64,000 nucleotides of DNA from Leptolyngbya sp. SIO1E4 (GTDB taxonomy: Bacteria; Cyanobacteriota; Cyanobacteriia; Phormidesmidales; Phormidesmidaceae): positions 62,001 to 126,000 of the forward strand of contig JAAHFU020000002.1 of the NCBI GenBank assembly GCA_010672825.2, written 5' to 3'. Every line of letters starts with the position of its first letter. The stretch's first letter is position 1. Below, piece after piece: positions 5,778 through 36,581 of the stretch. The notes beneath the pieces are model-generated. The model did not search any database and was not told where the DNA came from. It was given only the letters and a program-made list of their open reading frames with translations. Position numbers and translations under genes: made by a program.

Positions 5778-7337
5778 TTATTTCAGAATCGGTTCTTTAG
5801 AGGCTGCAGACTCTGGCAACATTTCCCCTGACTTGAGGCGAGACATGTAGCTATTGAGCTCGCGAGCAATCAGCCCGGACATCAAGAAGCAGCCCAGCAG
5901 GTTCGGCAGAGACATCGCTAGCGCCATAATGTCGCTGAAATCAAGAACTGGCCCAAGGTTAACGACTGCACCCACAAAAACACAAACTAGAAAGATCGTT
6001 TTGTAGGTATTGACTGTGCGATCGCCAAACAGAAATGCCCATGATTGCTGTCCATAATAGCTCCAAGAAATCATGGTCGAAAGCGCGAACAAAAACCCTG
6101 CCACCGCAATCACATAGGGGAACCAACTAATCACCTGTTCAAAGGAGGCGGCTGAAAGTTGAGCCCCATTCAGGTCAGCGGCTGTTGGATCTGCATACAC
6201 ACCCGTCAAGACAATGACAATGGCCGTCAGGTTACAGATAAACATCGTGTCAATGAAGGGCTCTAGCAGGGCTACAATCCCTTCTCGGATGGGTTCATCC
6301 GTTCGCGCGGCAGAGTGAGCAATGGCTGCTGAACCTAACCCCGCTTCGTTAGAAAATGCTGCTCGCTGAAACCCAATCACCAGTGCACCCACGGCACCCC
6401 CAGCCACTGCTTCTGGGCTGAATGCGGTGCTGATAATGGTGCCGATCGCCCCTGGAACAGCTGGCAGTTTGACCAGGATGACCCAAAAACACGCGAGGGC
6501 ATAAATAACCGCCATGAAAGGGACCAAAACCCCAGCCACTGCGCCAATGCGCTCGATGCCTCCAATAATGACTAACCCGACAACGGCGGCCAAAACAATG
6601 CCAAATAGCCAGCTAAAATTCTCTAGAACTGGAACGACGTTTGAGACGGCGGCAAACGCCTGATTGGCCTGGAACATATTGCCAATGCCCAGACTGCCAA
6701 TCGCGCAGAAAACCGCAAAAATGACGGCTAACCCTCTGCCTAAGGGGGCCATTCCCATTGCAGATAAGCCCCGAGAGAGGTAATACATCGGCCCGCCACC
6801 GACTGTGCCATCCGGTTTAATGACGCGATACTTTTGACCCAGGGTACATTCGGCAAACTTACTCGACATCCCTAAGAACCCTGCCATCGTCATCCAAAAA
6901 GCGGCCCCCGGCCCCCCTAGCCGAATGGCGATCGCAACCCCGGCAATGTTGCCGATGCCCACCGTGCCAGAAAGGGCAGCTGCTAAGGCTTGGAAATGGG
7001 ACACATCGCCTTCATCTTCAGCGCTGTCGTATTTGCCCTGGACGACATCAATCGCGTGTTTGAAAGCACGAATGTTAATGAATTTCAGGCGCAGCGTAAA
7101 GAAAATAGCCCCAATGACTAACCAAAGGACAATAAATGGCATGCCGTTTTCGCCACCAATCCTGAAATAAAACAGCAGGTTGAGAACATCGACAACGCTT
7201 TGAACTCCGGCTTCAAGGGCACCTAAAAGCCCCCCTGGGGCAGCATCTTCTTGGGCTAAAGCAGCTTGGGGTATAAAGACTGCCAAAAAAAGCATGAGGA
7301 AAAGATAGTTCCTCAATTTAAACAGCGCCTGTTTCAT
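5778..7337 (-). CDS. Alanine/glycine:cation symporter (AGCS family)
   Basis: Inner-membrane Na+- or H+-coupled transporter of alanine or glycine, 519 residues with about ten or eleven hydrophobic segments. The N terminus resembles a signal peptide (positively charged start, hydrophobic core, ALAQE cleavage-like site near 28). Family motifs seen include GTVGIGNIAGVAIAI near 125, GGGPMYYL near 180 and FSNEAGLGSAAIAHSAA near 331-347. The universal stress protein gene follows by 10 nt. Upstream lies an A+T-rich region with three inverted repeats (7426-7581) that could hold the promoter and operators. It fits the nitrogen-scavenging theme of this region by importing alanine, which Ald (16712) could deaminate; that link is an inference. 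Confidence 0.92.
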   Translation of the reverse strand: MKQALFKLRNYLFLMLFLAVFIPQAALAQEDAAPGGLLGALEAGVQSVVDVLNLLFYFRIGGENGMPFIVLWLVIGAIFFTLRLKFINIRAFKHAIDVVQGKYDSAEDEGDVSHFQALAAALSGTVGIGNIAGVAIAIRLGGPGAAFWMTMAGFLGMSSKFAECTLGQKYRVIKPDGTVGGGPMYYLSRGLSAMGMAPLGRGLAVIFAVFCAIGSLGIGNMFQANQAFAAVSNVVPVLENFSWLFGIVLAAVVGLVIIGGIERIGAVAGVLVPFMAVIYALACFWVILVKLPAVPGAIGTIISTAFSPEAVAGGAVGALVIGFQRAAFSNEAGLGSAAIAHSAARTDEPIREGIVALLEPFIDTMFICNLTAIVIVLTGVYADPTAADLNGAQLSAASFEQVISWFPYVIAVAGFLFALSTMISWSYYGQQSWAFLFGDRTVNTYKTIFLVCVFVGAVVNLGPVLDFSDIMALAMSLPNLLGCFLMSGLIARELNSYMSRLKSGEMLPESAASKEPILK

Positions 7338-8016: not shown

Positions 8017-8847
8017 TCAATACTCTCCGGATTCTTTGATCCGCCGCACCAAATACTCTCGCATTTCGATGAAGTCTTTCGAGAGGCGTAGTTCTGAAGG
8101 GGCCTTATCTTTTAACTTGGCCGAGAACGGGTTGGTGATATCTTCTACGATGCGACCTGGTTTAGCGTACATCAGAATAATGCGGGTAGAGAGCAGGAGG
8201 GCTTCTTCGACATCGTGGGTGATGAAGAAAATGCTTTTATGGGTCTGTGCCCAGATGTGATGCAGGCTGAGCTGCATCGATTCGCGGGTAAATGCATCTA
8301 AAGCCCCGAAGGGTTCGTCCATAAGGATGACTTTGGGGTCAGCTGCTAAGGCGCGGGCGATCGCGGCACGCTGTTTCATGCCCCCTGAAAGCTGGTAAGG
8401 CAATTTTTTGGCAGCATCAGAAAGACTCACCATGTCAAGAAAGTGGCTCACGCGCGATCGCCGCTCTTGAGCATCAACCCCCTTCATCCGAGGCCCAAAA
8501 TCGACATTTTTTTCGATGCTTAACCAGGGGAACAAGTTGGGTTGCTGAAACACCACGCCAACCTCAGCATCGGGTTTAGTATGGGGGTGGCCATCAACCA
8601 TCACGGTGCCATAGGTCGGGGCTTCATAGCCCGCCAGCACCCTCAATAAAGAGGTCTTGCCACAGCCTGACGGGCCAATAGCGCACACAAAATCACCGCT
8701 ATTGAGGTCTAAATCAACCCCTTGCAAGGCGTGGAAGGGCGTGCCGCCATAAACGTCATAGATCAAATCAATATTCTTGAGGGAGATCAGGGCAGTGCCT
8801 GCTGCCGTGGCGCTGGAAGTCTGATTAAGCGTGGTGGGATAAACCAT
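8017..8847 (-). CDS. tauB: Taurine ABC transporter ATP-binding protein
   Basis: Cytoplasmic ATPase that drives uptake of taurine or a related sulfonate. It has Walker A GPSGCGKTS, the Q-loop in VVFQQPNLFPWLS, signature LSGGMKQR, Walker B VILMDEP and H-loop ITHD, in the order typical of the nitrate/sulfonate/taurine (SsuB/TauB) subfamily. The frame is open up to a TTG at 8895, but that codon is only 2 nt from AGGAG. ATG 8847, preceded by AAGGT at suitable spacing, is preferred (276 residues). It is the last gene of the minus-strand operon aminotransferase-tauC-tauA-tauB. The specific substrate is inferred mainly from TauA and the neighbouring transaminase. Confidence 0.88.
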   Translation of the reverse strand: MVYPTTLNQTSSATAAGTALISLKNIDLIYDVYGGTPFHALQGVDLDLNSGDFVCAIGPSGCGKTSLLRVLAGYEAPTYGTVMVDGHPHTKPDAEVGVVFQQPNLFPWLSIEKNVDFGPRMKGVDAQERRSRVSHFLDMVSLSDAAKKLPYQLSGGMKQRAAIARALAADPKVILMDEPFGALDAFTRESMQLSLHHIWAQTHKSIFFITHDVEEALLLSTRIILMYAKPGRIVEDITNPFSAKLKDKAPSELRLSKDFIEMREYLVRRIKESGEY

Positions 8848-8929
8848 GGTGGTGACCTTAAATATTGCACCTGAAGTGCTGGTTAGGACAGTCAAATCTC
8901 CTGAAATCCTTATGCAGCAAGGTTTTGAT

Positions 8930-9038: not shown

Positions 9039-10127
9039 CTAAGATTTTGCGTCAGCGACTGCCTTGTTAAACATGGCGTCTTTGTACGCTGTTAGTTCCG
9101 GGGCGGAGGGAATCGCGCCCTGCTCCACCATGAATTCAGCCGAATCTTTGAGCACTTGAGCCATGGCACCGGGGGCATCGGGAGTGCCGAGATAGTCGGC
9201 AGAGGCTTGCTCTTCGGCGCTGAGCCAAATCAATTCGTCCATGACAACCAAGCTTTCTTCAGGGGAGAGGCCAATCTCTTCAGAGATCGCCTCAGAAGCT
9301 GCAGTTGGGTCTTCTCGATAAAACGCCACAGCGGCATCAATCGCGGCAACATAGTCCGTCAGGAAGTCGGGATACTGGGCCGCAAAGTCGGTATTGACGA
9401 CCCCCAGGTCGGCGGTGATGATGCCCGTTTCTGCAAGCTGCTTCGCGGTAATCAGGATGTTGCCATCAGCTTCCATCATTTTGGAAAGGGTCGGATGCCA
9501 GACGAAACCGCCGTCAATGTCGCCCCGTTGCCAGGCGGCCAACATGTCCTGGGGTTGCATATCGAGAATTTGCACATCAGTCGGATTGATGCCTTCTTGG
9601 TCTAGGGCCGACAGTAGGCTGAAGTGGGTGGTGGAACCAAAGGGGACGGCGATCTTTTTGCCGGGCAGATCGGCCATGGTGGTGATACCAGAGGCGCTGG
9701 TGACTGCGAGGGCTTCGTTGTCACCGATGATGTCGTGAATAATGTAGACCTGGTAAGGCAACTTTTGGGCAATGCCGGTAGAGGCGGGGACTGAACCCAC
9801 CAGTCCGACATCAATACCTCCCGAAACCATGGCCGTGTTAACGTCTCGACCCGAGTCGAAAGACAGCCACTGAATATCCACATCGGGATATTTCTCTTCC
9901 ATCAGGCCCAGATTTTTTGTGAGCACTTCAGCATTGGGAATCACTTGATAACCAATGCGAAATTCAGTGGGGGTTGCCCCGCCACCTGCGGCGGCGGCAT
10001 CATCAGGAGCCTCTGGAGCAGTGGCCGTAGGCTGAGTGCAGGCGGCAAGGAGAATTACCAAGGCCATGCTCAACAGACCCAGTAGAAAATTGAAGTGTCG
10101 TCGAAACAGGCGTTTGAAATTGAACAT
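9039..10127 (-). CDS. tauA: Taurine ABC transporter substrate-binding lipoprotein
   Basis: Periplasmic binding protein, 362 residues, with an N-terminal lipoprotein signal (charged start, hydrophobic core, lipobox LLAAC with the lipidated Cys at 30). The mature part closely follows E. coli TauA block by block as I recall it: a FDSG motif near 90, GSVPASTGIA near 111, KKIAVPFGSTTHFSLLSAL near 155-173 and AAWQRGDIDGGFVW near 196-209. The Ala/Gly/Thr-rich linker at 30-50 is typical of lipoprotein tethers. It lies between tauC (66 nt upstream) and tauB. A 12-bp hairpin spanning the tauC stop codon precedes it and may favour higher TauA synthesis. Taurine is the best substrate call; other short sulfonates remain possible. 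Confidence 0.92.
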   Translation of the reverse strand: MFNFKRLFRRHFNFLLGLLSMALVILLAACTQPTATAPEAPDDAAAAGGGATPTEFRIGYQVIPNAEVLTKNLGLMEEKYPDVDIQWLSFDSGRDVNTAMVSGGIDVGLVGSVPASTGIAQKLPYQVYIIHDIIGDNEALAVTSASGITTMADLPGKKIAVPFGSTTHFSLLSALDQEGINPTDVQILDMQPQDMLAAWQRGDIDGGFVWHPTLSKMMEADGNILITAKQLAETGIITADLGVVNTDFAAQYPDFLTDYVAAIDAAVAFYREDPTAASEAISEEIGLSPEESLVVMDELIWLSAEEQASADYLGTPDAPGAMAQVLKDSAEFMVEQGAIPSAPELTAYKDAMFNKAVADAKS

Positions 10128-10171: not shown

Positions 10172-10202
10172 CGCGAATAGGGGCGGCATGCCCCTATTCG
10201 CG
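10172..10202 (-). promoter_or_regulatory. Intercistronic hairpin between tauC and tauA
   Basis: CGCGAATAGGGG (10172-10183) and CCCCTATTCGCG (10191-10202) form a perfect 12-bp G+C-rich stem with a 7-nt loop. The stem overlaps the tauC stop codon (10194-10196) and lies 45-75 nt upstream of the tauA start. There is no T-run, so mRNA processing or 3'-end stabilisation is more likely than termination. Confidence 0.55.
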
Positions 10203-11057
10203 TCCGACCCAGGGTAAGTAATAGGTCTGTAGCCAGCGCAGGCCGAGATCGAGAACAATTGCAATCACACCCATAATCAAAATGCCGACAAAGATAATGT
10301 CGCTGCGTAGAAACTTACTGGCATCTAGCACCATCCAGCCGATACCTGAGACAGCCGCCACCATCTCAGCTGCCACCAGGGTGGTATACATAAACCCCAG
10401 GGCTGTCCGTAACCCCGTGAACAGCTCTGGTAAACAGGACGGAAAGATAATTTGGGTGAACACCTGCCATTGGGAGGCGCCGAGGGAAAGGGCAGCGTTG
10501 ACGCGATCGCGCGGTACCCGCTTCACCCCCGAGACCATGGCAATATACAGCGGGGCAAACCCGGCCAAAAATAACAAGGCAACTTTGGACGGATCTTCAA
10601 TGCCCAGCCAAATCACCAGCAGGGTGTAATAGGCCAGGGGCGGAAGCGGGCGGTAGAACTCAATGAACGGATCGAGAATTGCCTGGACTGGTTTGAAGTA
10701 GCCGCTGGCTAACCCCAGGGGCACAGCGGAGCACAGCGCCAGGACAAAGGCAATGACCAGGCGCCACATGCTGGCCCCAATGTGCTGAATCAGGGGGAGC
10801 CCTTTATAGCCGTTTTGCAAGATATCGAGAAAAGAGGCCCATACACTTTGGGGGGTGGGGAAGAATAACGGGTCTACCAGCCCTCCATTGGTTACCAAAA
10901 ACCACAGCAGCAGGGCCGTTAATACAGCACCCACCGATAGCAGGCGGGGAGGTATCTTAATGGACTTTTTGGTGGACTTTCTGGATGTGCGCTTCGGGGA
11001 TGTCGGCTTTTTTAGCCGCACCTCCCGGTCTGTGGATTTGTCGGTTTGCAAGGTCAT
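10194..11057 (-). CDS. tauC: Taurine ABC transporter permease
   Basis: Inner-membrane permease of the BPD_transp_1 type that pairs with TauB. About six membrane helices follow a Lys/Arg-rich cytoplasmic N terminus. The EAA-type coupling motif is present in the segment ALSLGASQWQVFTQIIFPSCLPE. Conserved FYRPLPPLAYYTLLVIWLGI is characteristic of the TauC/SsuC group. The frame is open to 11174, which would overlap the aminotransferase gene, but the extra N-terminal residues look like read-through of intergenic DNA; ATG 11057 gives MTLQTDK and a normal family length (287 residues). No strong ribosome-binding site is visible at either start. It is the second gene of the operon. Confidence 0.88.
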   Translation of the reverse strand: MTLQTDKSTDREVRLKKPTSPKRTSRKSTKKSIKIPPRLLSVGAVLTALLLWFLVTNGGLVDPLFFPTPQSVWASFLDILQNGYKGLPLIQHIGASMWRLVIAFVLALCSAVPLGLASGYFKPVQAILDPFIEFYRPLPPLAYYTLLVIWLGIEDPSKVALLFLAGFAPLYIAMVSGVKRVPRDRVNAALSLGASQWQVFTQIIFPSCLPELFTGLRTALGFMYTTLVAAEMVAAVSGIGWMVLDASKFLRSDIIFVGILIMGVIAIVLDLGLRWLQTYYLPWVGRE

Positions 11058-11154
11058 GGCGATCAAGGGAATGGGGATGGGGGGCATGTAACTGAACGGT
11101 GCTAGGCCGGGGAACAAGGGCGCATGGCTACACGCCCCCAATCCCATCGAGAAA

Positions 11155-12540
11155 CTACCCAGCAGGCAGGGCAAAGACTGCCTGGTAAAGGGTGTCTGCT
11201 AAGCGATCTGCCTCCTCATGGGTCAGTACCAGAGGAGGGCACAAAATCAGCACGTTTGTGTGGCCTGGAATGGTATTGGTGTTGCGGCCAATGATGAGGT
11301 GTTTATCCATGCAGTGTTTAATTACGGCACTGACCCGGTCTCCATCGAGTGGTGTTTTGCTGACTTTGTCTTGGACCAGCTCTACCCCCAGCAAGAGCCC
11401 CTTCCCACGCACGTCACCAACGTTGGGATGGTTCAGCAGTCGCCGCAGTTTTTCGAGCAGGTACTCTCCCATTTCGGCAGCCCGTTCGGGTAGGTTCTCC
11501 CGCTCTAAAATTTCAATGTTGCGCAGGGCTACCGCGCTGCAAACGGGGGTGCCGCCGTAGGTGGTGATATGCCGAAAGTGGCTGTCACTACCCGGCTCGT
11601 CTAAAAAGGCTGCGAAGACATGCTGTTTTACAACCGTGGCTGACAAAGGCATGTACCCGCTAGTCAGGCCCTTAGCAAAGCAAATGATATCGGGCTGCAC
11701 GCCCCAGTGCTGGTGGCCAAACATGCGTCCTGTGCGGCCAAAGCCATTGACCACTTCGTCATAAATCAAGAGAATGCCCGTGCGATCGCAAATCTCCCTG
11801 ACCCCCTGCAAATAGCCCTCCGTCGGTGGAATTACACCGCCACCCGAGATGATTGGCTCGACAATAACGGCAGCGACAGACTCAGCCCCTTCGTAAAGAA
11901 TGGTCTGCTCTAGTTCTCGCAGGCAGGCCGCGTTATACACATCTTCTGACTGCCCGTCCCCGAAGCGATAGTGGTAAGGCGGGCTGACATGAAGGAAGCC
12001 CGGTACCAACGGCTCATACTTGAGTTTGCGTTCGGCTTGAGCGGTTGCGCTTAAGGCCCCCATGGTGTGGCCATGGTAGCCCCGATAGCGAGAAATAATT
12101 TTGTATCGGGGGCCTGATCCGGCTGGGGCAGTTTGAGCATGGTACTGACGCGCAATCTTAAAGGCGGTTTCGTTGGCCTCTGATCCGCTAGTGGAAAAGA
12201 ACACCTTGCCCTCATAGCCCAGTAGCGACAGCAGTTTATGGGCTAGCCGAATCCCGGGCTCATGGCTCATGGTCAGTGGGAAGTAGGCCAAATCGACCAT
12301 CTGCTCATAGGCCACTTCTGCCAGTTCCTGACGGCCATAGCCCACATTGACGCACCATAGACCTGAAATGCCATCGAAGTATTCCGCTCCATCGGCATCG
12401 GTGACATAACACCCAACGCCACGTTCCATGCGCTTAGGCGGCTTCTGGGAAAATGGCTTGTGTTGCACCATGGGATGCCACAGCGAGGCAGCATCCATTT
12501 TCCCTAAGTCAACTGTTTCTGGATTCAGACTGGCAACCAT
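11155..12540 (-). CDS. tpa: Class III aminotransferase, probable taurine--pyruvate aminotransferase
   Basis: PLP enzyme of 461 residues proposed to transfer the amino group of taurine to pyruvate, giving sulfoacetaldehyde and L-alanine. Class III features are present: FSTSGSEANETAFKIAR near 115-131, GYHGHTMGALSATAQAE near 154-170, DEVVNGFGRTGRMFG with the pyridine-contacting D261, and the Schiff-base lysine K290 in FAKGLTSGYMP. KYEPLVPGFLHVSPP resembles the block I associate with Tpa proteins. AGGAG lies 10 nt before ATG 12540. It leads the tauCAB genes and follows an NtcA-type promoter. Alanine dehydrogenase nearby supports pyruvate as acceptor. A broader omega-amino acid:pyruvate transaminase is the main alternative. 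Confidence 0.8.
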   Translation of the reverse strand: MVASLNPETVDLGKMDAASLWHPMVQHKPFSQKPPKRMERGVGCYVTDADGAEYFDGISGLWCVNVGYGRQELAEVAYEQMVDLAYFPLTMSHEPGIRLAHKLLSLLGYEGKVFFSTSGSEANETAFKIARQYHAQTAPAGSGPRYKIISRYRGYHGHTMGALSATAQAERKLKYEPLVPGFLHVSPPYHYRFGDGQSEDVYNAACLRELEQTILYEGAESVAAVIVEPIISGGGVIPPTEGYLQGVREICDRTGILLIYDEVVNGFGRTGRMFGHQHWGVQPDIICFAKGLTSGYMPLSATVVKQHVFAAFLDEPGSDSHFRHITTYGGTPVCSAVALRNIEILERENLPERAAEMGEYLLEKLRRLLNHPNVGDVRGKGLLLGVELVQDKVSKTPLDGDRVSAVIKHCMDKHLIIGRNTNTIPGHTNVLILCPPLVLTHEEADRLADTLYQAVFALPAG

Positions 12541-12620
12541 GAGGAAATACTCCTAATAACACAAGAGAATGCTCGGATTAACGAGCGATGTTTTGCCAAC
12601 ATGAAGCGCCTTAGCTATGC

Positions 12621-12662
12621 ACATTAACAACATAAATAAAGCGCTTATGTATATCGATATAC
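12621..12662 (-). promoter_or_regulatory. NtcA-activated promoter of the taurine operon
   Basis: The palindrome GTATATCGATATAC (12649-12662) matches the NtcA consensus GTA-N8-TAC exactly. On the minus strand, 22 nt after the TAC comes TAATGT (12626-12621), matching the TAN3T -10 element. This is the canonical class II NtcA promoter layout (site centred near -41.5). The predicted transcript starts near 12614, about 75 nt before the aminotransferase start codon. NtcA is the cyanobacterial nitrogen-control activator; control of this operon is inferred. Confidence 0.7.
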
Positions 12663-12691
12663 GATCAAACACGATGAGGCATGAAAAGCCA

Positions 12692-12722
12692 ATATTTCCA
12701 CAATCAAATTTTGTGGAAATAT
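12692..12722. repeat. Perfect 12-bp inverted repeat upstream of the NtcA promoter
   Basis: ATATTTCCACAA (12692-12703) and TTGTGGAAATAT (12711-12722) are perfect inverted arms with a 7-nt spacer, 30 bp upstream of the NtcA box. It could be an operator for a second regulator or a weak terminator for the upstream SDR-TauE transcript. Confidence 0.5.
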
Positions 12723-12927
12723 GATTTTTGGCATGCCAAGAGTTTCTGGCACCAGCCAGAAAACAAGATCTTGACTTATCTAGATACCCTCTGTTGCTGC
12801 ACATATAAAACCCTTGCTATCGCCCTGCTCACCCTGGAGAAAAGCAGGCTCTGAAAGTCAAGGAATGTACCTCTTTCAATCCGATTGGTATCAGATGGGT
12901 CAATGGCTGAAATGAAAACCTATGAAA

Positions 12928-13659
12928 TCATGACTGCACCCCCAATATGACAAGTCGAATGCCGATCACCATCAAAATTCCAAGCACTATCCGAGTGAAT
13001 ATCAAGGGATTAAAAATTTTTGATAGGGTAACCCCGGATAACAACCCCACAATTAGACTCGGGATGGTGATCAAAAACTGATGAAAAATCTCTGGCGAAA
13101 TGCGCTGTTGTAGCCCATGCCCTAAAACGACAAGAACGGCATTCACCCAGAAAAAGCTGGTTAAGTTGCTTTTGAACTTTTCCTGAGGCCAACGCTGACT
13201 GTTGCCATACAGCACCACTGGCGGCCCGGGTAGGTTATAGCTACCAATCAAAATGCCAGATACCCAGCCAGTTCCATAGGGCCATAGCTGTGACTTCAAC
13301 TCGGGCATTACGGGGGCGATCAGTGCATATAAGGAATAGATCAAAATCACGATTCCTAACGTAATCAGCATCCAGGCTGCAGGGATGTATCGTAAGGCTA
13401 AAAAACCAAATGGAATGCCTAGAACTGAGCCGAATAACAGTTGTGCCACAACTTTGCGATCGCAGGATCGACGATAGTAAAGGCATAACAAGGTGTCGTT
13501 CGTCAAAGTAGTCAGCGCTACTAAAGGAGCCGCGACATGAATGCTGGTTAATCCTGCCAGTACCGGCATCGTCACTAAGGCAAACCCAAAGCCTGCAACC
13601 CCCTGGATAAAGGCGGCCAAAAAAGTAGTGAGAATAATAATGATTTCTACTAACGTCAT
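12928..13659 (-). CDS. TauE/SafE (DUF81) family membrane exporter
   Basis: Integral membrane protein of 243 residues with about seven or eight hydrophobic helices and the duplicated TauE/SafE pattern: GVAGFGFALVTMPVL near 20-34 and a second-half repeat GSYNLPGPPVVLYGNSQRW near 138-156. This family exports sulfite, sulfoacetate and other organosulfonates or C2 compounds. Its start overlaps the stop of the upstream SDR gene by 4 nt (ATGA), so the two are translationally coupled. Next to a taurine uptake and transamination operon, export of the leftover sulfonate (isethionate, sulfoacetate or sulfite) is the most economical role; the exact cargo is inferred. Confidence 0.85.
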   Translation of the reverse strand: MTLVEIIIILTTFLAAFIQGVAGFGFALVTMPVLAGLTSIHVAAPLVALTTLTNDTLLCLYYRRSCDRKVVAQLLFGSVLGIPFGFLALRYIPAAWMLITLGIVILIYSLYALIAPVMPELKSQLWPYGTGWVSGILIGSYNLPGPPVVLYGNSQRWPQEKFKSNLTSFFWVNAVLVVLGHGLQQRISPEIFHQFLITIPSLIVGLLSGVTLSKIFNPLIFTRIVLGILMVIGIRLVILGVQS

Positions 13660-14435
13660 TCCAGGTTCCGGTGAACGAGCGATACGGAAGATTGATCGGT
13701 CGGCATCAGGAAGATTTCGCTGATATTCACGTGGGCGGGGCGAGTGATCGCAAACAAAATAGTGTCGGCAATATCATCGGGAGTCAGCGGTGTCATGCCG
13801 CTATAAACAGATTTGGCTCGGTCTTCATCTCCCCGAAAACGCACCTGGCTAAATTCGGTTTCTACCAACCCTGGCTCAATGTTGGTGACGCGCACCGCGG
13901 TGCCTAATAAATCCATCTTTAGGCCTTCAGATAGAGCCTTAACCGCTGCTTTGGTGGCGCAGTAAACACTGCCGCCGGGATAAGTCTGCCGAGCTGCGAT
14001 CGAACCAATGTTGACAACATGACCGTGTCCTCGTGAGACCATCACCGGTACGATCTCGCGCGTCATGTACAGCAACCCTTTGATATTGGTGTCAATCATT
14101 TCTTCCCAATCCTGAAGCGGGGAATTGTACTGTTTGCCTAACCCCCGGCTGAGTCCAGCATTGTTAATGAGGACATCAATGTGCTGCCAGTCAGCCGGCA
14201 ACCCTTGAATAGCGGCTCTGATGGTGTCACGATTTTGCACATCTACCGGCAGTAACAGCGCCTCAACCTGATAACTTTGGTGCAGCTCGTCTGCTAAAGC
14301 CTGCAGTTTTTCTTTGCGGCGAGCGGCCAGAATCAAACGTGCTCCTGCCTGGGCAAATAAACGAGCACAGGAGCGCCCAATGCCACTGCTGGCTCCGGTA
14401 ATGAGAATGGTTTGATTGGTGATAGATACGGTCAT
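13656..14435 (-). CDS. SDR-family oxidoreductase, YdfG/IsfD-like; candidate sulfoacetaldehyde reductase
   Basis: Classical short-chain dehydrogenase of 259 residues. The NADP-binding glycine motif TGASSGIG is at 13-20, with basic residues in LAARRKEKL (37-45) suggesting NADPH preference. NNAG is at 91-94, and the catalytic S145, Y158 and K162 are in order. The C-terminal blocks (RVTNIEPGLVETEFS, ALTPDDIAD-like segment, PAHVNISEIFLMPTDQS) resemble the YdfG 3-hydroxy acid dehydrogenase subgroup, to which I think the taurine-pathway reductase IsfD also belongs. Reduction of sulfoacetaldehyde to isethionate is proposed from the neighbourhood. Generic serine or 3-hydroxy acid dehydrogenase activity is the alternative. 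It overlaps the TauE gene by 4 nt. Confidence 0.8.
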   Translation of the reverse strand: MTVSITNQTILITGASSGIGRSCARLFAQAGARLILAARRKEKLQALADELHQSYQVEALLLPVDVQNRDTIRAAIQGLPADWQHIDVLINNAGLSRGLGKQYNSPLQDWEEMIDTNIKGLLYMTREIVPVMVSRGHGHVVNIGSIAARQTYPGGSVYCATKAAVKALSEGLKMDLLGTAVRVTNIEPGLVETEFSQVRFRGDEDRAKSVYSGMTPLTPDDIADTILFAITRPAHVNISEIFLMPTDQSSVSLVHRNLE

Positions 14436-14609
14436 GAAATGGGATGCACTCCTGGCAGTTGATCTTGAACAATGTTGGATTTTCCGCTGGTTATTTGCTG
14501 GTTGTGATTCGCGGATTTTCTGATGTATTCTCCGTTGATAAGCAAGGGATGGGTAACGGGGCAGCAGGGGTATGAGCCCCTTTTTCCTACCTGCTGACGC
14601 TTCTAGCCG

Positions 14610-15551
14610 TTAGCGAATCGCTGACGGCTGATGTCTCAGGGTCAAATAATTCAGCAACGCCTCTCGAAATGGCAACAAGTTTTTGTACACCTGCATTTCC
14701 GGCTGTAGAGCTGACACTGCTTGGGCCAGCTGCGCTGCCACGGTAGGCGTTTCTACGATTTGCTCTAGTGGATAAAGATAGGTTCGAATGGTGAACAGAA
14801 TGCCCTGACTGACGGGCAAACGGCGTAGGGTTTGCCGTTCTACCCTTAGCCACAGGGTTTGCCCAGCATTTTCTGCAGTAATTGCAGCATTCAACGCGGT
14901 TACCTGCTTGTCTTCATTCAGAAAGAGATCAGGCGAATCCACAATGCTCCAGTTAAATCGCAGGCCTGGAAAGCCCTCTCGCAGGCGGTCGAACACATTG
15001 TCCACTGGACGCTCTAGCCTTTGGGCATAGTCTGGCACCCGCTGGTGAATCCGCCCCATGGGTTGACCGAGTTTTTCCCGTAGAGACCACCGCTGGGGAA
15101 AACAGACGGAAGCTGCAGACAGAACGTACCCCTGGTCTCCAGGAAGCAGCAAACAGAGGTCTTCTTGCACCAGCCGCCCTGCTAAATCGAGGGGCGCCTC
15201 TGCAAATGAGGCAAACTTCCAAATTTCCTGAGTTTTGAGAGTGTGAATGCCGCGCTCTAGCGGTTTATAAATTTCAGGAAAGTATGTAAACAGATGCTCC
15301 ATGAGCAACTGCAAAACTTCTTGTTGAGCGGCTTGAGTATTGGGAAGCGCCGAAAACACATCTGGATGGTGACTGGCTAATAGCTGGGCTTTGTACTGCA
15401 AATAGCTCTCTAATTTGCCATCAATATCGAGCCAACTCTCCAATGACAAAGCCTTTAACCCCATTGTAAGATGGCGCTTACTTTCCATAAATGGCAAGTG
15501 TATTGACTGATGATTTGAAACGCTCATTGACAGGGCCTCAGCATTTATCAA
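14610..15551 (-). CDS. DUF3445 / haem-dependent oxidative N-demethylase-like protein
   Basis: Soluble protein of 313 residues belonging to the DUF3445 family, described as haem-dependent oxidative N-demethylase (HODM alpha-subunit) like. The diagnostic block is clear: CFPQRWSLREKLGQPMGRIH near 152-171, then VPDYAQRLERPVDNVFDRL near 174-192 and the downstream WSIVDSPDLFL. The first 30 residues are poorly conserved-looking and offer several in-frame ATG choices, so the start is uncertain. The gene lies 174 bp upstream of the SDR-TauE pair on the same strand. If the family function holds, it might demethylate N-methylated taurine or another secondary amine before transamination; this is speculative. 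Confidence 0.75.
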   Translation of the reverse strand: MINAEALSMSVSNHQSIHLPFMESKRHLTMGLKALSLESWLDIDGKLESYLQYKAQLLASHHPDVFSALPNTQAAQQEVLQLLMEHLFTYFPEIYKPLERGIHTLKTQEIWKFASFAEAPLDLAGRLVQEDLCLLLPGDQGYVLSAASVCFPQRWSLREKLGQPMGRIHQRVPDYAQRLERPVDNVFDRLREGFPGLRFNWSIVDSPDLFLNEDKQVTALNAAITAENAGQTLWLRVERQTLRRLPVSQGILFTIRTYLYPLEQIVETPTVAAQLAQAVSALQPEMQVYKNLLPFREALLNYLTLRHQPSAIR

Positions 15552-16342
15552 AAATTAAGCGTTGATCAGACCTACTCTCTTCACAGAGTTATGAAATACT
15601 GACGGATCAGAATTATGAGAAAGACCTCTTGAGTGCGACAAAATCAACCGTCAAAAATGATGGATTTGAAGCATCTGTCAAAGCATCAGCGACCTGACAA
15701 TTGAATCCTCTTCCCTGAAATTGAAAACGCGAACTGCCTGGACTTACTGCTTAAAAAGTCTTAAGAGAGACGCCTAAGAGAAAACCGCTAATGGCTGTTG
15801 CAGGGTAAGTTCCCTGCAAACAACGTCTTCGCTTTCAGATTAAAAAGTCAGAGGCCTTAAGGCTGCTGGTCTGCTCTCAATAAGGGCAACATTACCCTTG
15901 AGACACTTCTTTTAGAGAAGGATCTGTAGAGGTTGCTCAAGATAAGCACTGCCTGAATCTCTGGTGTAAGTCTGAGCTTGGATTCTGGTCAGTCCCTATA
16001 GAGTGAAGGTTTAGAACATCTGCACTTTGATTAGCCCAAACCTGGCCCCATCGCAGCTTGGAGACAGGATAGAGAGCCTAAATAAGGTAAACCGCAGAGC
16101 CTGGTAACCTAAATATGATTCAGCAGAGCGAAGCAGAAAATGATTTGGAGAGCAGCATCGCCTACCCGGTTACCACAGCATAGGGAGAACCTACACCATT
16201 CCATTTGAGCAAGTGCTTATGGCGCCGCCCCTCCTTCGTGTTCAAGTAAGAAGGAGTATGACTTGGACTCAGGGATGAAAAGTATAGAGACAATACCAAC
16301 ATCTTAGTCGGGGGCGGTGGAGTGTTGAGTCAATACAGACCG

Positions 16343-16384
16343 AAACTATCAAGGTTTAGTATATCTTTTTGTATGATGGTATAC
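16343..16384 (-). promoter_or_regulatory. Second candidate NtcA-type promoter, minus-strand orientation
   Basis: GTATGATGGTATAC (16371-16384) fits GTA-N8-TAC. On the minus strand TAGTTT (16348-16343) follows after 22 nt and fits TAN3T. This points toward the DUF3445 gene with an unusually long leader (about 785 nt) or toward an unannotated small RNA. On the plus strand, toward ald, I see no correctly spaced TAN3T. A chance match is quite possible. Confidence 0.4.
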
Positions 16385-16689
16385 AGCCCTTAGAAATTAC
16401 TTGACTGAATGAAATTGATCTTGATATAGATGATTAGGTTCGGTGATACTCTATGGCTGTAAACTTACTGGTTGGGTTGATCTTCTAAAGTCGCAGCAGT
16501 AGATCAATCTTGAATAACAGGGTTTATATCGTCATTGGCACTCTGATCAGAAATTGAGAAAACTAAAGCTACAAGCAATGAGTGCTTTTGAAGATTGGGT
16601 TAGTTTTGATAGGAGCGGAATAGAGCCCCCCTATCATTAACGACTCCCAAGCCATCCTAAGAATTGCAACAACAAAGCAACGTAACTTT

Positions 16690-16710
16690 GCGAATTGGAG
16701 GTTAATTCGC
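16690..16710 (+). promoter_or_regulatory. Ribosome-binding site in the loop of a hairpin before ald
   Basis: GCGAATT (16690-16696) and AATTCGC (16704-16710) form a perfect 7-bp stem whose 7-nt loop is GGAGGTT, exposing the Shine-Dalgarno sequence. The ald ATG follows at 16712. This placement fixes the start codon and could tune translation. Confidence 0.6.
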
Positions 16711-16711
16711 C

Positions 16712-17827
16712 ATGCAAATTGGGCTTCCCAAGGAAATTAAAGATCAGGAATTTCGAGTCGGGTTGACCCCTGCTAGCGTGCAGGCCCTATGCAATAAGGG
16801 GCATCAGGTCGTCGTGGAGAAAGCGGCCGGGACTGGGGCTGGGTTTACCGATGCCGATTATGTCGCTGCGGGGGCAACTCTGGCGTCTGATCCGGCGATC
16901 GCCTGGGCACAGGAAATGGTGGTCAAGGTTAAAGAACCTCAGCCTTCTGAATATGCTTATTTTCGCGATGACCTGGTGCTGTTTACCTATCTCCATCTCG
17001 CTGCCGAGCGAGCGCTAACCGAGGCGCTGATAACCAGCGGAGTCAGTGCGATCGCCTATGAAACGGTGATGACCACCGATGGCAAACTGCCTCTGCTGAC
17101 GCCCATGAGCATCATTGCCGGGCGGCTGTCTGTGCAGTTTGGGGCGCGCTATTTAGAGAAACAGCAGGGAGGGCGCGGCGTGCTCCTTGGCGGGGTGCCC
17201 GGTGTGGCCCCCGGTCGCGTGGCAATTTTGGGAGGCGGCATTGTGGGCACAGAAGCCGCTCGCATTGCCGTAGGCATGGGGGCCCAGGTGCAAATTTTAG
17301 ATATTAATGTTGATCGCCTCTCTTACCTAGAAACTCTGTTTGGGTCTCGGGTTGAGCTGCTTTACAGCACGGCGGCCCAGGTTGAACGGGTCGTGCCAGA
17401 GGCAGATTTGTTGATCGGCGCCGTGCTCGTGCCAGGTCGCAAAGCACCCACCTTGGTTAACCGAGACCTGGTGGCCAAAATGCACCCTGGGTCAGTGATT
17501 ATCGATGTGGCAGTTGATCAGGGGGGCTGTATTGAAACCCTGCGCCCCACGTCCCACAGTCACCCCACCTATGTAGAAGCAGGGGTGGTGCACTTTGGGG
17601 TACCCAATATGCCAGGGGCGGCTCCCTGGACGGCAACGCAGGCGCTGAACAATAGCACCTTGCCCTATGTGCTGAAGCTAGCGGATCATGGGCTTGATGC
17701 GCTGCAGAAAGACCCCGCGTTGGCCCAGGGGTTGAATGTGGTTAAAGGGGCGATCTCTCACCCGGCGGTACAGGAGGTGTTTCCTGATCTTTGCAAACCT
17801 TCGGTTCCCAGCCCCGCCTTGACCTAA
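16712..17827 (+). CDS. ald: L-alanine dehydrogenase
   Basis: NAD-dependent oxidative deamination of L-alanine to pyruvate and ammonium (reversible), cytoplasmic, 371 residues as usual. Substrate-site residues expected for the family are present: R15 in EFRVG, K74 in KVKEP and H95 in YLHLA. The Rossmann motif GGGIVGTEAA is near 173-182, with an acidic residue (LDIN) ending the second strand, favouring NAD. The start is set by GGAGG in the hairpin loop just upstream. It is divergent from the DUF3445-SDR-TauE-taurine genes. In known taurine pathways Ald regenerates the pyruvate consumed by Tpa and releases ammonium, so it fits the locus functionally, though it may serve general alanine metabolism. 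Confidence 0.95.
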   Translation: MQIGLPKEIKDQEFRVGLTPASVQALCNKGHQVVVEKAAGTGAGFTDADYVAAGATLASDPAIAWAQEMVVKVKEPQPSEYAYFRDDLVLFTYLHLAAERALTEALITSGVSAIAYETVMTTDGKLPLLTPMSIIAGRLSVQFGARYLEKQQGGRGVLLGGVPGVAPGRVAILGGGIVGTEAARIAVGMGAQVQILDINVDRLSYLETLFGSRVELLYSTAAQVERVVPEADLLIGAVLVPGRKAPTLVNRDLVAKMHPGSVIIDVAVDQGGCIETLRPTSHSHPTYVEAGVVHFGVPNMPGAAPWTATQALNNSTLPYVLKLADHGLDALQKDPALAQGLNVVKGAISHPAVQEVFPDLCKPSVPSPALT

Positions 17828-34955: not shown

Positions 34956-36581
34956 TTGATGAGAATGCCACATCTAATGGCTATTCGATGGCTACGGCGC
35001 TACCGTCGCTTGGTCTTGTGGCTTCTTGGAACTAGTTTTGTTCCCTCTATCTTTTTGCTATTGATTTCGTATTATCAAACGATCGCGGGTGCGCAATCTG
35101 ACTTAGAGAAAGCTGTTGAGCAAAGTGCACGGCGTCTTTCTAGCCTGATGAGAGCTTCAGAAATAACGCTGAAAGAGCTAGAAATTAGCCTTGAGAATCT
35201 TAGCCTGAATGATTCTAGGGCGTGGAAACTACTGCAGCGCTTAGCCTATAGCGACCCTAGATTTCGTGAAATTGGGATTATCAATGAAGAAGGGCTACTA
35301 GTCTTGACCAGCTTGGGACCTGTTGATCCGCCAATTTATGTAAATGCGAAGATCCGGGCTGACCTGTCGGTTAAGGAATTACAGATTATTGGCCCGATAA
35401 CCACTACTTTAATGCAAGAAAGATCCATCGTTCTTGCATTGCCTACAAAGGGAAAAGGTGAAATTAATATACTGGTTGACCCGATTGTTTTGAGCACTTA
35501 TTGGAATAGCTCTAACGAACTAGATTTAGGCCCCGATGGCTTTCTCGCATACGTGAATAAACAAGATCAGAAAATAATTACTGGATCGGGTATTTTGCCG
35601 AGGGATGGACGTATATCTACCAGTGTTATCAGAAAACAGAGATTAAGAGAAGTCCATCCGGTTGATGGTACTAATGTCTACATCGTTGGTGAAGTTTCTA
35701 AAGCCTGGGTCTTGCAAAAATGGAGGCATCTATTGCTCATTGGTAGTCCAATTACTATCTTGAGCAGTAGTATTTTGATGTTTTTGCTGATTCGATTTCT
35801 CTACCCGACTCAGATGTTAGATTATGACATCAAAATAGGACTTAAAAATAACGAATTTGAACTCCACTACTAGCCTATTCTTGATCTTCGCACCGGTCGT
35901 TGTATTGGTTCTGAAGCGCTCATTCGCTGGCAACATAGTAACCAGGGTCTTTTATTGCCAAGTCTATTTATTCCAGTTGCTGAGAAAACCGGCTTGATTG
36001 CTGAAATTGGTGAATGGGTAATTGAGAAGGTGATTGAAGAGCAATCGCAACTTTTGAAGGTTTACCCTGATTTGTACACAGCTATTAATTTGTCTCCAGC
36101 ACAGCTAAATTCCGGTGCCTCGAATCAAACGATTCTGAGATTTTTAGAGAAAGATTGTAAAATCGCTAACAACTTAGTATTTGAAATTACAGAAGCTATC
36201 TTGATTGAAGACGATAAAACACCTGCTCTCGACACGGTTGCCAGACTTCGATCTTTAGGTGCCAGAATCTCCCTAGATGATTTTGGGACAGGCCATTCAG
36301 GCATTAGCTATCTTCATAAGCTTGGTTTTGACTATCTCAAGATTGATCGTGTCTATACCTCTGCGAGTGATGCCTCTTCAAGTATTGCATCCATTCTTGA
36401 GGGCATTATCGACTTTGGCAGACGGCTTCAAGTTGAGTTGATTGCAGAAGGGATTGAAACGGAAGCCCAGCAACAATTCCTGCTAAACCGGGATATCCGA
36501 TATGGACAAGGGCGATTGCTGGCATACCCGATGCCTATCCGAGAGTTTGAGTACTTTTTGGCAGGAAATCTAAAAAATTAA
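34956..36581 (+). pseudogene. CSS-type sensor/EAL c-di-GMP phosphodiesterase interrupted by an amber codon
   Basis: One reading frame from 34956 to 36581 (541 codons) encodes membrane helix (about 20-40), a periplasmic sensor loop (45-260) of CSS-motif type but lacking the Cys, a second helix (about 262-283) and a complete EAL domain. It is broken only by TAG at 35871-35873 (codon 306), exactly where EAL proteins have Gln in the motif HYQP; CAG to TAG is a one-base change. The downstream frame keeps the catalytic set: EALIRW, NLSPAQL, EITEAIL, DDFGTG, LKIDR, AEGIE and GQGRL. The codon could be a recent nonsense mutation, be suppressed, or be a sequencing error. Without read-through the product is a sensor lacking its phosphodiesterase. 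Confidence 0.85.

Follow-up and report, generated by a model that had tools for sequence, protein, structure and literature searches.

A candidate NtcA-activated promoter before a probable taurine aminotransferase and importer operon in Leptolyngbya sp. SIO1E4

A class III aminotransferase gene of the cyanobacterium Leptolyngbya sp. SIO1E4 and the TauCAB-type importer genes behind it appear to be driven by a canonical class II NtcA-activated promoter, here called P2, in a pathway that would probably keep the nitrogen of taurine and discard its sulfonate; we give this reading a probability of roughly 85%. It was reached from the window, meaning the whole stretch of 64,000 nucleotides that was analysed, and from related genomes. 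What was observed directly is how the promoter is built, that close relatives keep it, that some known nitrogen genes of the host are preceded by the same arrangement, and which genes the cluster contains. If the reading is true, the global regulator of nitrogen in cyanobacteria would also govern the use of a dissolved organic sulfonate amine, and phototrophs would be linked to the taurine that marine animals and algae release.

Architecture of the promoter

In the class II rule as it is set out in the relevant part of PMC3898017, an NtcA box of the form GTAN8TAC is centred near -41.5 and followed by a -10 box TAN3T, with 22 nt between the two in the examples given there. On the minus strand of the window the box GTATATCGATATAC occupies positions 12649-12662 and the -10 box TAATGT positions 12621-12626, with a spacer of 22 nt (12648-12627) between them. 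Counting 41.5 nt from the box centre, as that rule has it (PMC3898017), predicts a transcription start at 12614. The box stands 108 nt from the aminotransferase gene, whose ATG is at 12540 on the minus strand, and a probable ribosome-binding site, AGGAG (12550-12554, minus strand), lies 9 nt 5' of the start codon. The 14 bp of GTATATCGATATAC form a perfect palindrome, of which the window has six, and as a 14-mer it has a single copy in the 8.22 Mb host genome. Between the end of the upstream TauE-family gene and the P2 box there is a 12-bp stem-loop (12692-12722, minus strand; fold z -5.1), the probable end of the upstream transcript; this strong stem-loop lies between P2 and the TauE-family, SDR and HODM genes. 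An ordinary sigma-70 promoter was considered and rejected, with 7 matches against 6.2 in shuffled sequences. A search for known RNAs and riboswitches from 12000 to 17000 returned a single match of 17.4 bits against a gathering score of 45 (E 0.5), which was discarded.

Taken without the -10 box, GTAN8TAC has 14 matches in the window, or one per 4.6 kb, against 4.72 in shuffled sequences; the rate of about one per 4 kb that the earlier note had expected of random matches therefore holds for the observed sequence and fails for the shuffled one. The full pattern GTAN8TAC-N20-24-TAN3T is present four times on both strands together, compared with 0.5 in Markov simulations. The matches at 12662 and 16384 are both intergenic, on the minus strand and in the same cluster; the one at 14743 falls inside the HODM gene on the opposite strand, and the last is at 35681. 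In a simulated intergenic region with the length and composition of that of P2, read on one strand, the pattern has a probability of 0.0016, or 0.0007 if only spacings of 22-23 are allowed.

A gene-start control covered the 250 nt upstream of 232 starts (ORFs of at least 130 aa), taken from the window together with 17 cyanobacterial loci. Strict GTAN8TAC-N22-24-TAN3T precedes six of them, namely 5/18 aminotransferase copies (window, L015, L016, L018 and L019) as against 1/214 other genes, and the loose GTN10AC form precedes 11/18 and 8/214, respectively. On the strength of the simulations, this control and the conservation described below, a chance origin of P2 was rejected. The earlier note had seen in P2 a fit to GTA-N8-TAC-N20-24-TAN3T pointing at the aminotransferase gene, and its sequence, coordinates, orientation and spacing are all as claimed.

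Conservation in relatives

The aminotransferase gene was found in 9 of 39 genomes of relatives (E up to 1e-80) and in 2 of 386 genomes of the phylum (E up to 1e-150), the host being counted in both sets; three of the nine hold remote paralogues, of 38-39% identity. Scanning genome contigs for the gene yielded 35 loci, in 20 of which the 400 nt upstream were inspected. The upstream regions of the window and of L011-L019, the loci at least 83% identical in the aminotransferase, were aligned as 10 sequences. All nine of these relatives keep GT-N10-AC in the same place, followed 22-24 nt on by TAN3T. The strict GTAN8TAC is kept in four of them (L015, L016, L018 and L019) as in the window, and in the other five (L011-L014 and L017) the left half reads GTG instead of GTA. 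GT and TATACA never vary in the alignment but the inner bases do, the pattern of a binding site under selection. The alignment has 14 invariant columns, eight of them inside the 15-bp site, a placement for which the hypergeometric probability of 1.3e-7 is rough since the sequences are related.

The promoter appears to be confined to this close circle among the loci inspected: no such promoter precedes the aminotransferase gene in the 10 loci at most 80% identical (L007, L020, L021, L023-L025, L028, L030, L041 and L046). Within 800 nt upstream, no strict box with a -10 was found in L020, L021, L023, L024, L025, L028, L030 or L041; strict boxes in L023, L024 and L028 lack a -10, and the loose GTN10AC matches of L030 and L041 are more than 320 nt from the gene. 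L007 and L046 have no such promoter within 1500 nt upstream.

NtcA in the host genome and at other nitrogen genes

The host genome encodes ntcA (L047; 385 bits, cut-off 245), and the box and exact 22-nt spacing of P2 recur in the host promoters of glnA (GTATCAAGAAATAC-22-TAGGAT), urtA (GTATTCTAGGCTAC-22-TACTAT) and a urtA-like gene (GTATTGAAGCATAC-22-TATGAT, 488 nt before the ORF). The host ntcA gene itself has a GTAN8TAC-type box without a canonical -10, and no canonical box with a -10 was found at four amt-family loci or at the glutamine-synthetase-like L093 and L094 (L095 lies outside this count). Searching the genome for GTATN6ATACA returned 29 rows, in many of which the same site is read on both strands, and 15 with the reversed pattern as control; several copies of this type of box sit inside genes. 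At L058 (C1:1464800) of the same genome, a gene for a urea-type binding protein and a divergent permease-like ORF flank a GTAN8TAC box that has TAN3T at 22 and 20 nt on its two sides and is a possible two-way NtcA promoter.

GTN10AC is highly conserved in the 508 putative NtcA ChIP sites treated in PMC3898017, and a putative Anabaena site reported there, GTGTGTCTTGATAC, which lies 22 nt before a putative -10, resembles the GTGTGT variant of L012-L014. With the class II promoters of glnA, urtA, nirA and ntcB, as that source describes them, P2 shares the box, the distance of about 22 nt and TAN3T (PMC3898017); unlike the known class II targets it names, that of P2 is an aminotransferase/taurine-importer operon. 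The canonical NtcA promoter proposed in the earlier note is thus supported at the level of sequence by the class II architecture, the presence of ntcA in the host, the match to glnA and urtA and conservation in 9/9 close relatives. Judged by sequence, P2 is a typical case of a well-known promoter class. No report of such a target was found among the open-access papers listed, none of whose titles deals with NtcA and the use of taurine.

The gene cluster and its probable substrate

The gene behind P2 (11155-12540, minus strand) encodes a probable taurine aminotransferase of 461 aa with an Aminotran_3 domain, assigned to the PRK07678 subfamily (NF005812, 617.9 bits, cut-off 488). It is distant from the taurine:2-oxoglutarate enzyme 6jix (217 bits, against 505 for the best match). 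On the same strand follow genes for a TauC-type ABC permease (10194-11174; TauC is the best NCBIfam model, 246 bits, below the cut-off of 342), a TauA-type substrate-binding protein (9039-10127; TIGR01729, 225 bits, below 304), whose best solved relative is the taurine-binding protein 6ssy, and a TauB-type ABC ATPase (8017-8895; taurine ATP-binding subunit model, 264 bits, below 357). An AGCS sodium:amino acid symporter (5778-7337, minus strand; TIGR00835 over cut-off) and, after it, a Usp protein gene lie beyond the aminotransferase-TauCAB genes. On the other side of P2, also on the minus strand, are a TauE/SafE-family membrane protein and candidate IsfE-like exporter (12928-13659; PF01925), a YdfG/IsfD-like SDR reductase (13656-14435; best NCBIfam model YdfG, NF007829, 279.5 bits, below the cut-off of 411) and a haem N-demethylase resembling the HODM alpha subunit (14610-15551; PF11927); an alanine dehydrogenase (16712-17827; TIGR00518, 573 bits, over cut-off) is encoded on the plus strand. 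That HODM stands beside taurine-type genes might, as speculation, point to demethylation of N-methyltaurine to taurine.

Neighbourhoods were compared across the loci only, over at most 10 kb to either side or as far as the contig end. The commonest neighbours in relatives are the SDR, TauE-family, AGCS, Usp and alanine dehydrogenase genes; the exceptions are L018 with the TauE-family gene only, L020 with the SDR only and L030 with HODM only, and L021 and L025 have none of the compared neighbour genes. The first recognised gene behind the aminotransferase is AGCS in L011-L015, L017 and L019, and alanine dehydrogenase is near the aminotransferase in 9/17 loci of named cyanobacterial relatives (L011, L013-L015, L017, L023, L024, L028 and L041). 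Among the loci compared, the window, L016 and the Domibacillus MAG L022 are the only ones with TauCAB behind the aminotransferase. The aminotransferase of this MAG is 68% identical to that of the window, and the gene may have passed between Bacillota and cyanobacteria, or the contig may be mis-binned.

PMC6616044 describes how Klebsiella and Chromohalobacter import taurine, transaminate it, reduce the product to isethionate with NADPH and export this; as of 2019 it gives IsfD clusters as predicted in Proteobacteria only. Like the IsfD-type clusters outlined there, the present one has candidates for the importer, the aminotransferase, the reductase (an SDR) and the exporter side by side; unlike them, it has a cyanobacterial host, a PRK07678-subfamily aminotransferase, linked alanine dehydrogenase and AGCS genes and an NtcA-type promoter (PMC6616044). 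Anoxic Synechococcus is described with taurine transporter genes and without a known cleavage route in the pertinent part of PMC12997750, and the corresponding part of PMC3368415 merely cites isethionate work. As judged from its genes, the substrate of the cluster is probably taurine. No Xsc scored above cut-off, the two best matches being acetolactate synthases, and no desulfonating gene is among the ORFs scanned in the cluster. Together with the IsfD/YdfG-like reductase, the TauE-family protein and the alanine dehydrogenase, the lack of an Xsc over cut-off favours a role in nitrogen supply, and the earlier note's preference for nitrogen over sulfur is thereby the better supported one, on grounds of gene content that are independent of the promoter.

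Under nitrogen shortage, NtcA together with 2-oxoglutarate would bind at 12649-12662 and bring RNA polymerase to TAATGT (12626-12621), and the mRNA induced from about 12614 is predicted to carry the aminotransferase and the TauCAB-type importer. The importer would take up an amine, most probably taurine, whose amino group the aminotransferase would move into amino acids. The IsfD-like reductase would probably reduce the leftover aldehyde and the TauE-family protein would probably export the product; in this way the nitrogen would be retained and the sulfonate discarded.

Alternative explanations

Some regulator other than NtcA, such as a LysR or MocR protein dedicated to the pathway, might bind the palindrome, whose fit to the NtcA consensus would then be coincidental. 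The invariant right half TATACA exceeds the minimal NtcA rule, the Pleurocapsales-type loci with small ORF and aminotransferase described below have a different palindrome 21-22 nt before TAN3T in six of six cases, and in Hyella a LysR gene adjoins the second copy of that palindrome, all of which would suit such a protein. However, the box and exact spacing of P2 equal those of host glnA and urtA, no transcription regulator is among the 13 ORFs scanned from 4.1 to 20.9 kb, and one cluster holds two NtcA-type boxes, and we regard another regulator as improbable. Least probable is a cluster that serves sulfur supply next to an incidental NtcA box. Taurine transporters often serve sulfur supply, and the host genome has two TauD-family genes elsewhere, on contig C4; the better-scoring TauD-family stretch (L104), though, has no NCBIfam match at 1e-30, the scanned cluster ORFs and the Xsc search speak against desulfonation, and alanine dehydrogenase, reductase and a conserved NtcA-type promoter all argue for nitrogen instead.

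More weight belongs to an operon that NtcA does control but that handles another amine, such as beta-alanine, which would pass through malonic semialdehyde to 3-hydroxypropionate by means of the YdfG-like enzyme. This idea keeps its place because the SDR resembles YdfG more than IsfD, with 249 bits to 3asu and 217 to the sulfoacetaldehyde reductase 6ixj, and AGCS and alanine dehydrogenase genes adjoin the aminotransferase in more loci than TauCAB does. Against it stand the adjacent TauE-family gene and the presence of TauCAB behind the aminotransferase in three loci (window, L016 and the Domibacillus MAG), and on this evidence a substrate other than taurine seems rather unlikely.

A second promoter and a conserved small ORF

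The cluster has a second NtcA-type promoter, P1, between the alanine dehydrogenase and the HODM/SDR genes, with the box GTATACCATCATAC at 16371-16384 and, 22 nt after it, the -10 box TAGTTT at 16343-16348, both on the minus strand. The box stands 68 nt before a conserved small ORF of 46 codons (16162-16302, minus strand; MLVLSLYFSSLSPSHTPSYLNTKEGRRHKHLLKWNGVGSPYAVVTG) with the core GRxHKHL...GVGSP. The strict form GTAN8TAC-22-TAN3T is found at P1 in the window, L011, L013, L014, L015 and L017, where the distance to the ORF is 64 nt in the five relatives. L016 and L019 have looser versions, the box with its -10 is absent from the searched regions of L018, L020 and L030, and the contig of L012 ends before the site.

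Homologues of the small ORF were aligned from the window and 12 loci (13 sequences), and L046 and a second copy in L024 were recognised in addition. All 13 aligned sequences share the GR-x-HKHL and G-x-GSP core, in which the second L024 copy differs. Differences totalled over all sequence pairs number 1069, 813 and 1884 at codon positions 1, 2 and 3 (229, 66 and 735 in the core); third positions vary most, which favours coding, and a function as RNA only was rejected. The window, L011, L013-L017 and L019 have a start-type codon (ATG; GTG in L016) 25 codons ahead of the core, and the other seven copies have ATG or GTG 20-21 codons before it (GTG at 21 in the Hyella copy). The ORF has no match in NCBIfam and none in Pfam apart from a sub-threshold one (E 0.2), and an AlphaFold2 model from the 13 sequences is uninformative (mean pLDDT 55.9). 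Origin as a mobile or viral piece was likewise rejected, with no plasmid match and confirmation of 0/38 pattern matches in viral contigs.

Among 386 genomes of the phylum the small ORF turned up in G000 and G106, the same two that have the aminotransferase, in a search that scored up to 18 first-look candidates per genome and so does not make absence strict. The G106 match contains one TGA in the reported range, and L046 shows an open frame; G264 gave a weak match with two stops (E 9.6e-4). In the 39 relatives, where all candidates were scored, the ORF is present in G000, G002, G015 and G023, all with the aminotransferase, and absent from G003 and G025, which have that gene. So far the small ORF thus appears bound to the aminotransferase cluster, the weak, stop-broken match in G264 aside. 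Several NtcA-linked small proteins of cyanobacteria (PirA, NirP1 and IF7) are likewise encoded by a short ORF right behind an NtcA-type promoter. The present ORF, compared with them by description only, differs in having no Pfam or NCBIfam match and in being found with this cluster.

Pleurocapsales-type loci

In L023-L025, L028 and L041, which are named Pleurocapsales, and in L046, the small ORF precedes the aminotransferase in the same orientation and has another conserved element before it. The pattern TGTTYR-N3-BRAACR, with TAN3T at 21-22 nt, occurs in six of six of these loci, the same sequences from which it was built, and has 10 matches in the 534,252 strand-bases of 17 loci, six of them the ones listed here. 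The palindromes, similar to TGTTTGN3CAAACA, are at 6018 in L023, 3630 and 9309 in L024, 9441 in L025, 6316 in L028, 6952 in L041 and on the reverse strand of L046. From its sequence, this region looks like a LysR-type control region. Hyella has, at L024:2702-7052, a LysR gene, the second element with its copy of the small ORF and then DmmA-like, reductase and HODM genes, an arrangement that suggests a dimethylamine-monooxygenase-like operon headed by the small ORF.

The small gene seems to have an NtcA-type promoter in one group and the promoter of another activator in the other, and it is the part of the cluster that would be likely to surprise a specialist. Tentatively, and with rather less than even confidence, we propose that the first of the two NtcA promoters, P1, drives an undescribed, pathway-specific protein of about 46 residues that tunes amine scavenging, by way of the aminotransferase and the haem N-demethylase, to nitrogen status. 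In Pleurocapsales a LysR-like element at nearly equal distance from the -10 box would take the place of the NtcA box, and in Hyella the two copies would stand before the aminotransferase genes and the dimethylamine-monooxygenase-like operon. A further detail, seen by eye, is an ACATT-N8-AATGT-like repeat that overlaps the Pleurocapsales-type palindrome.
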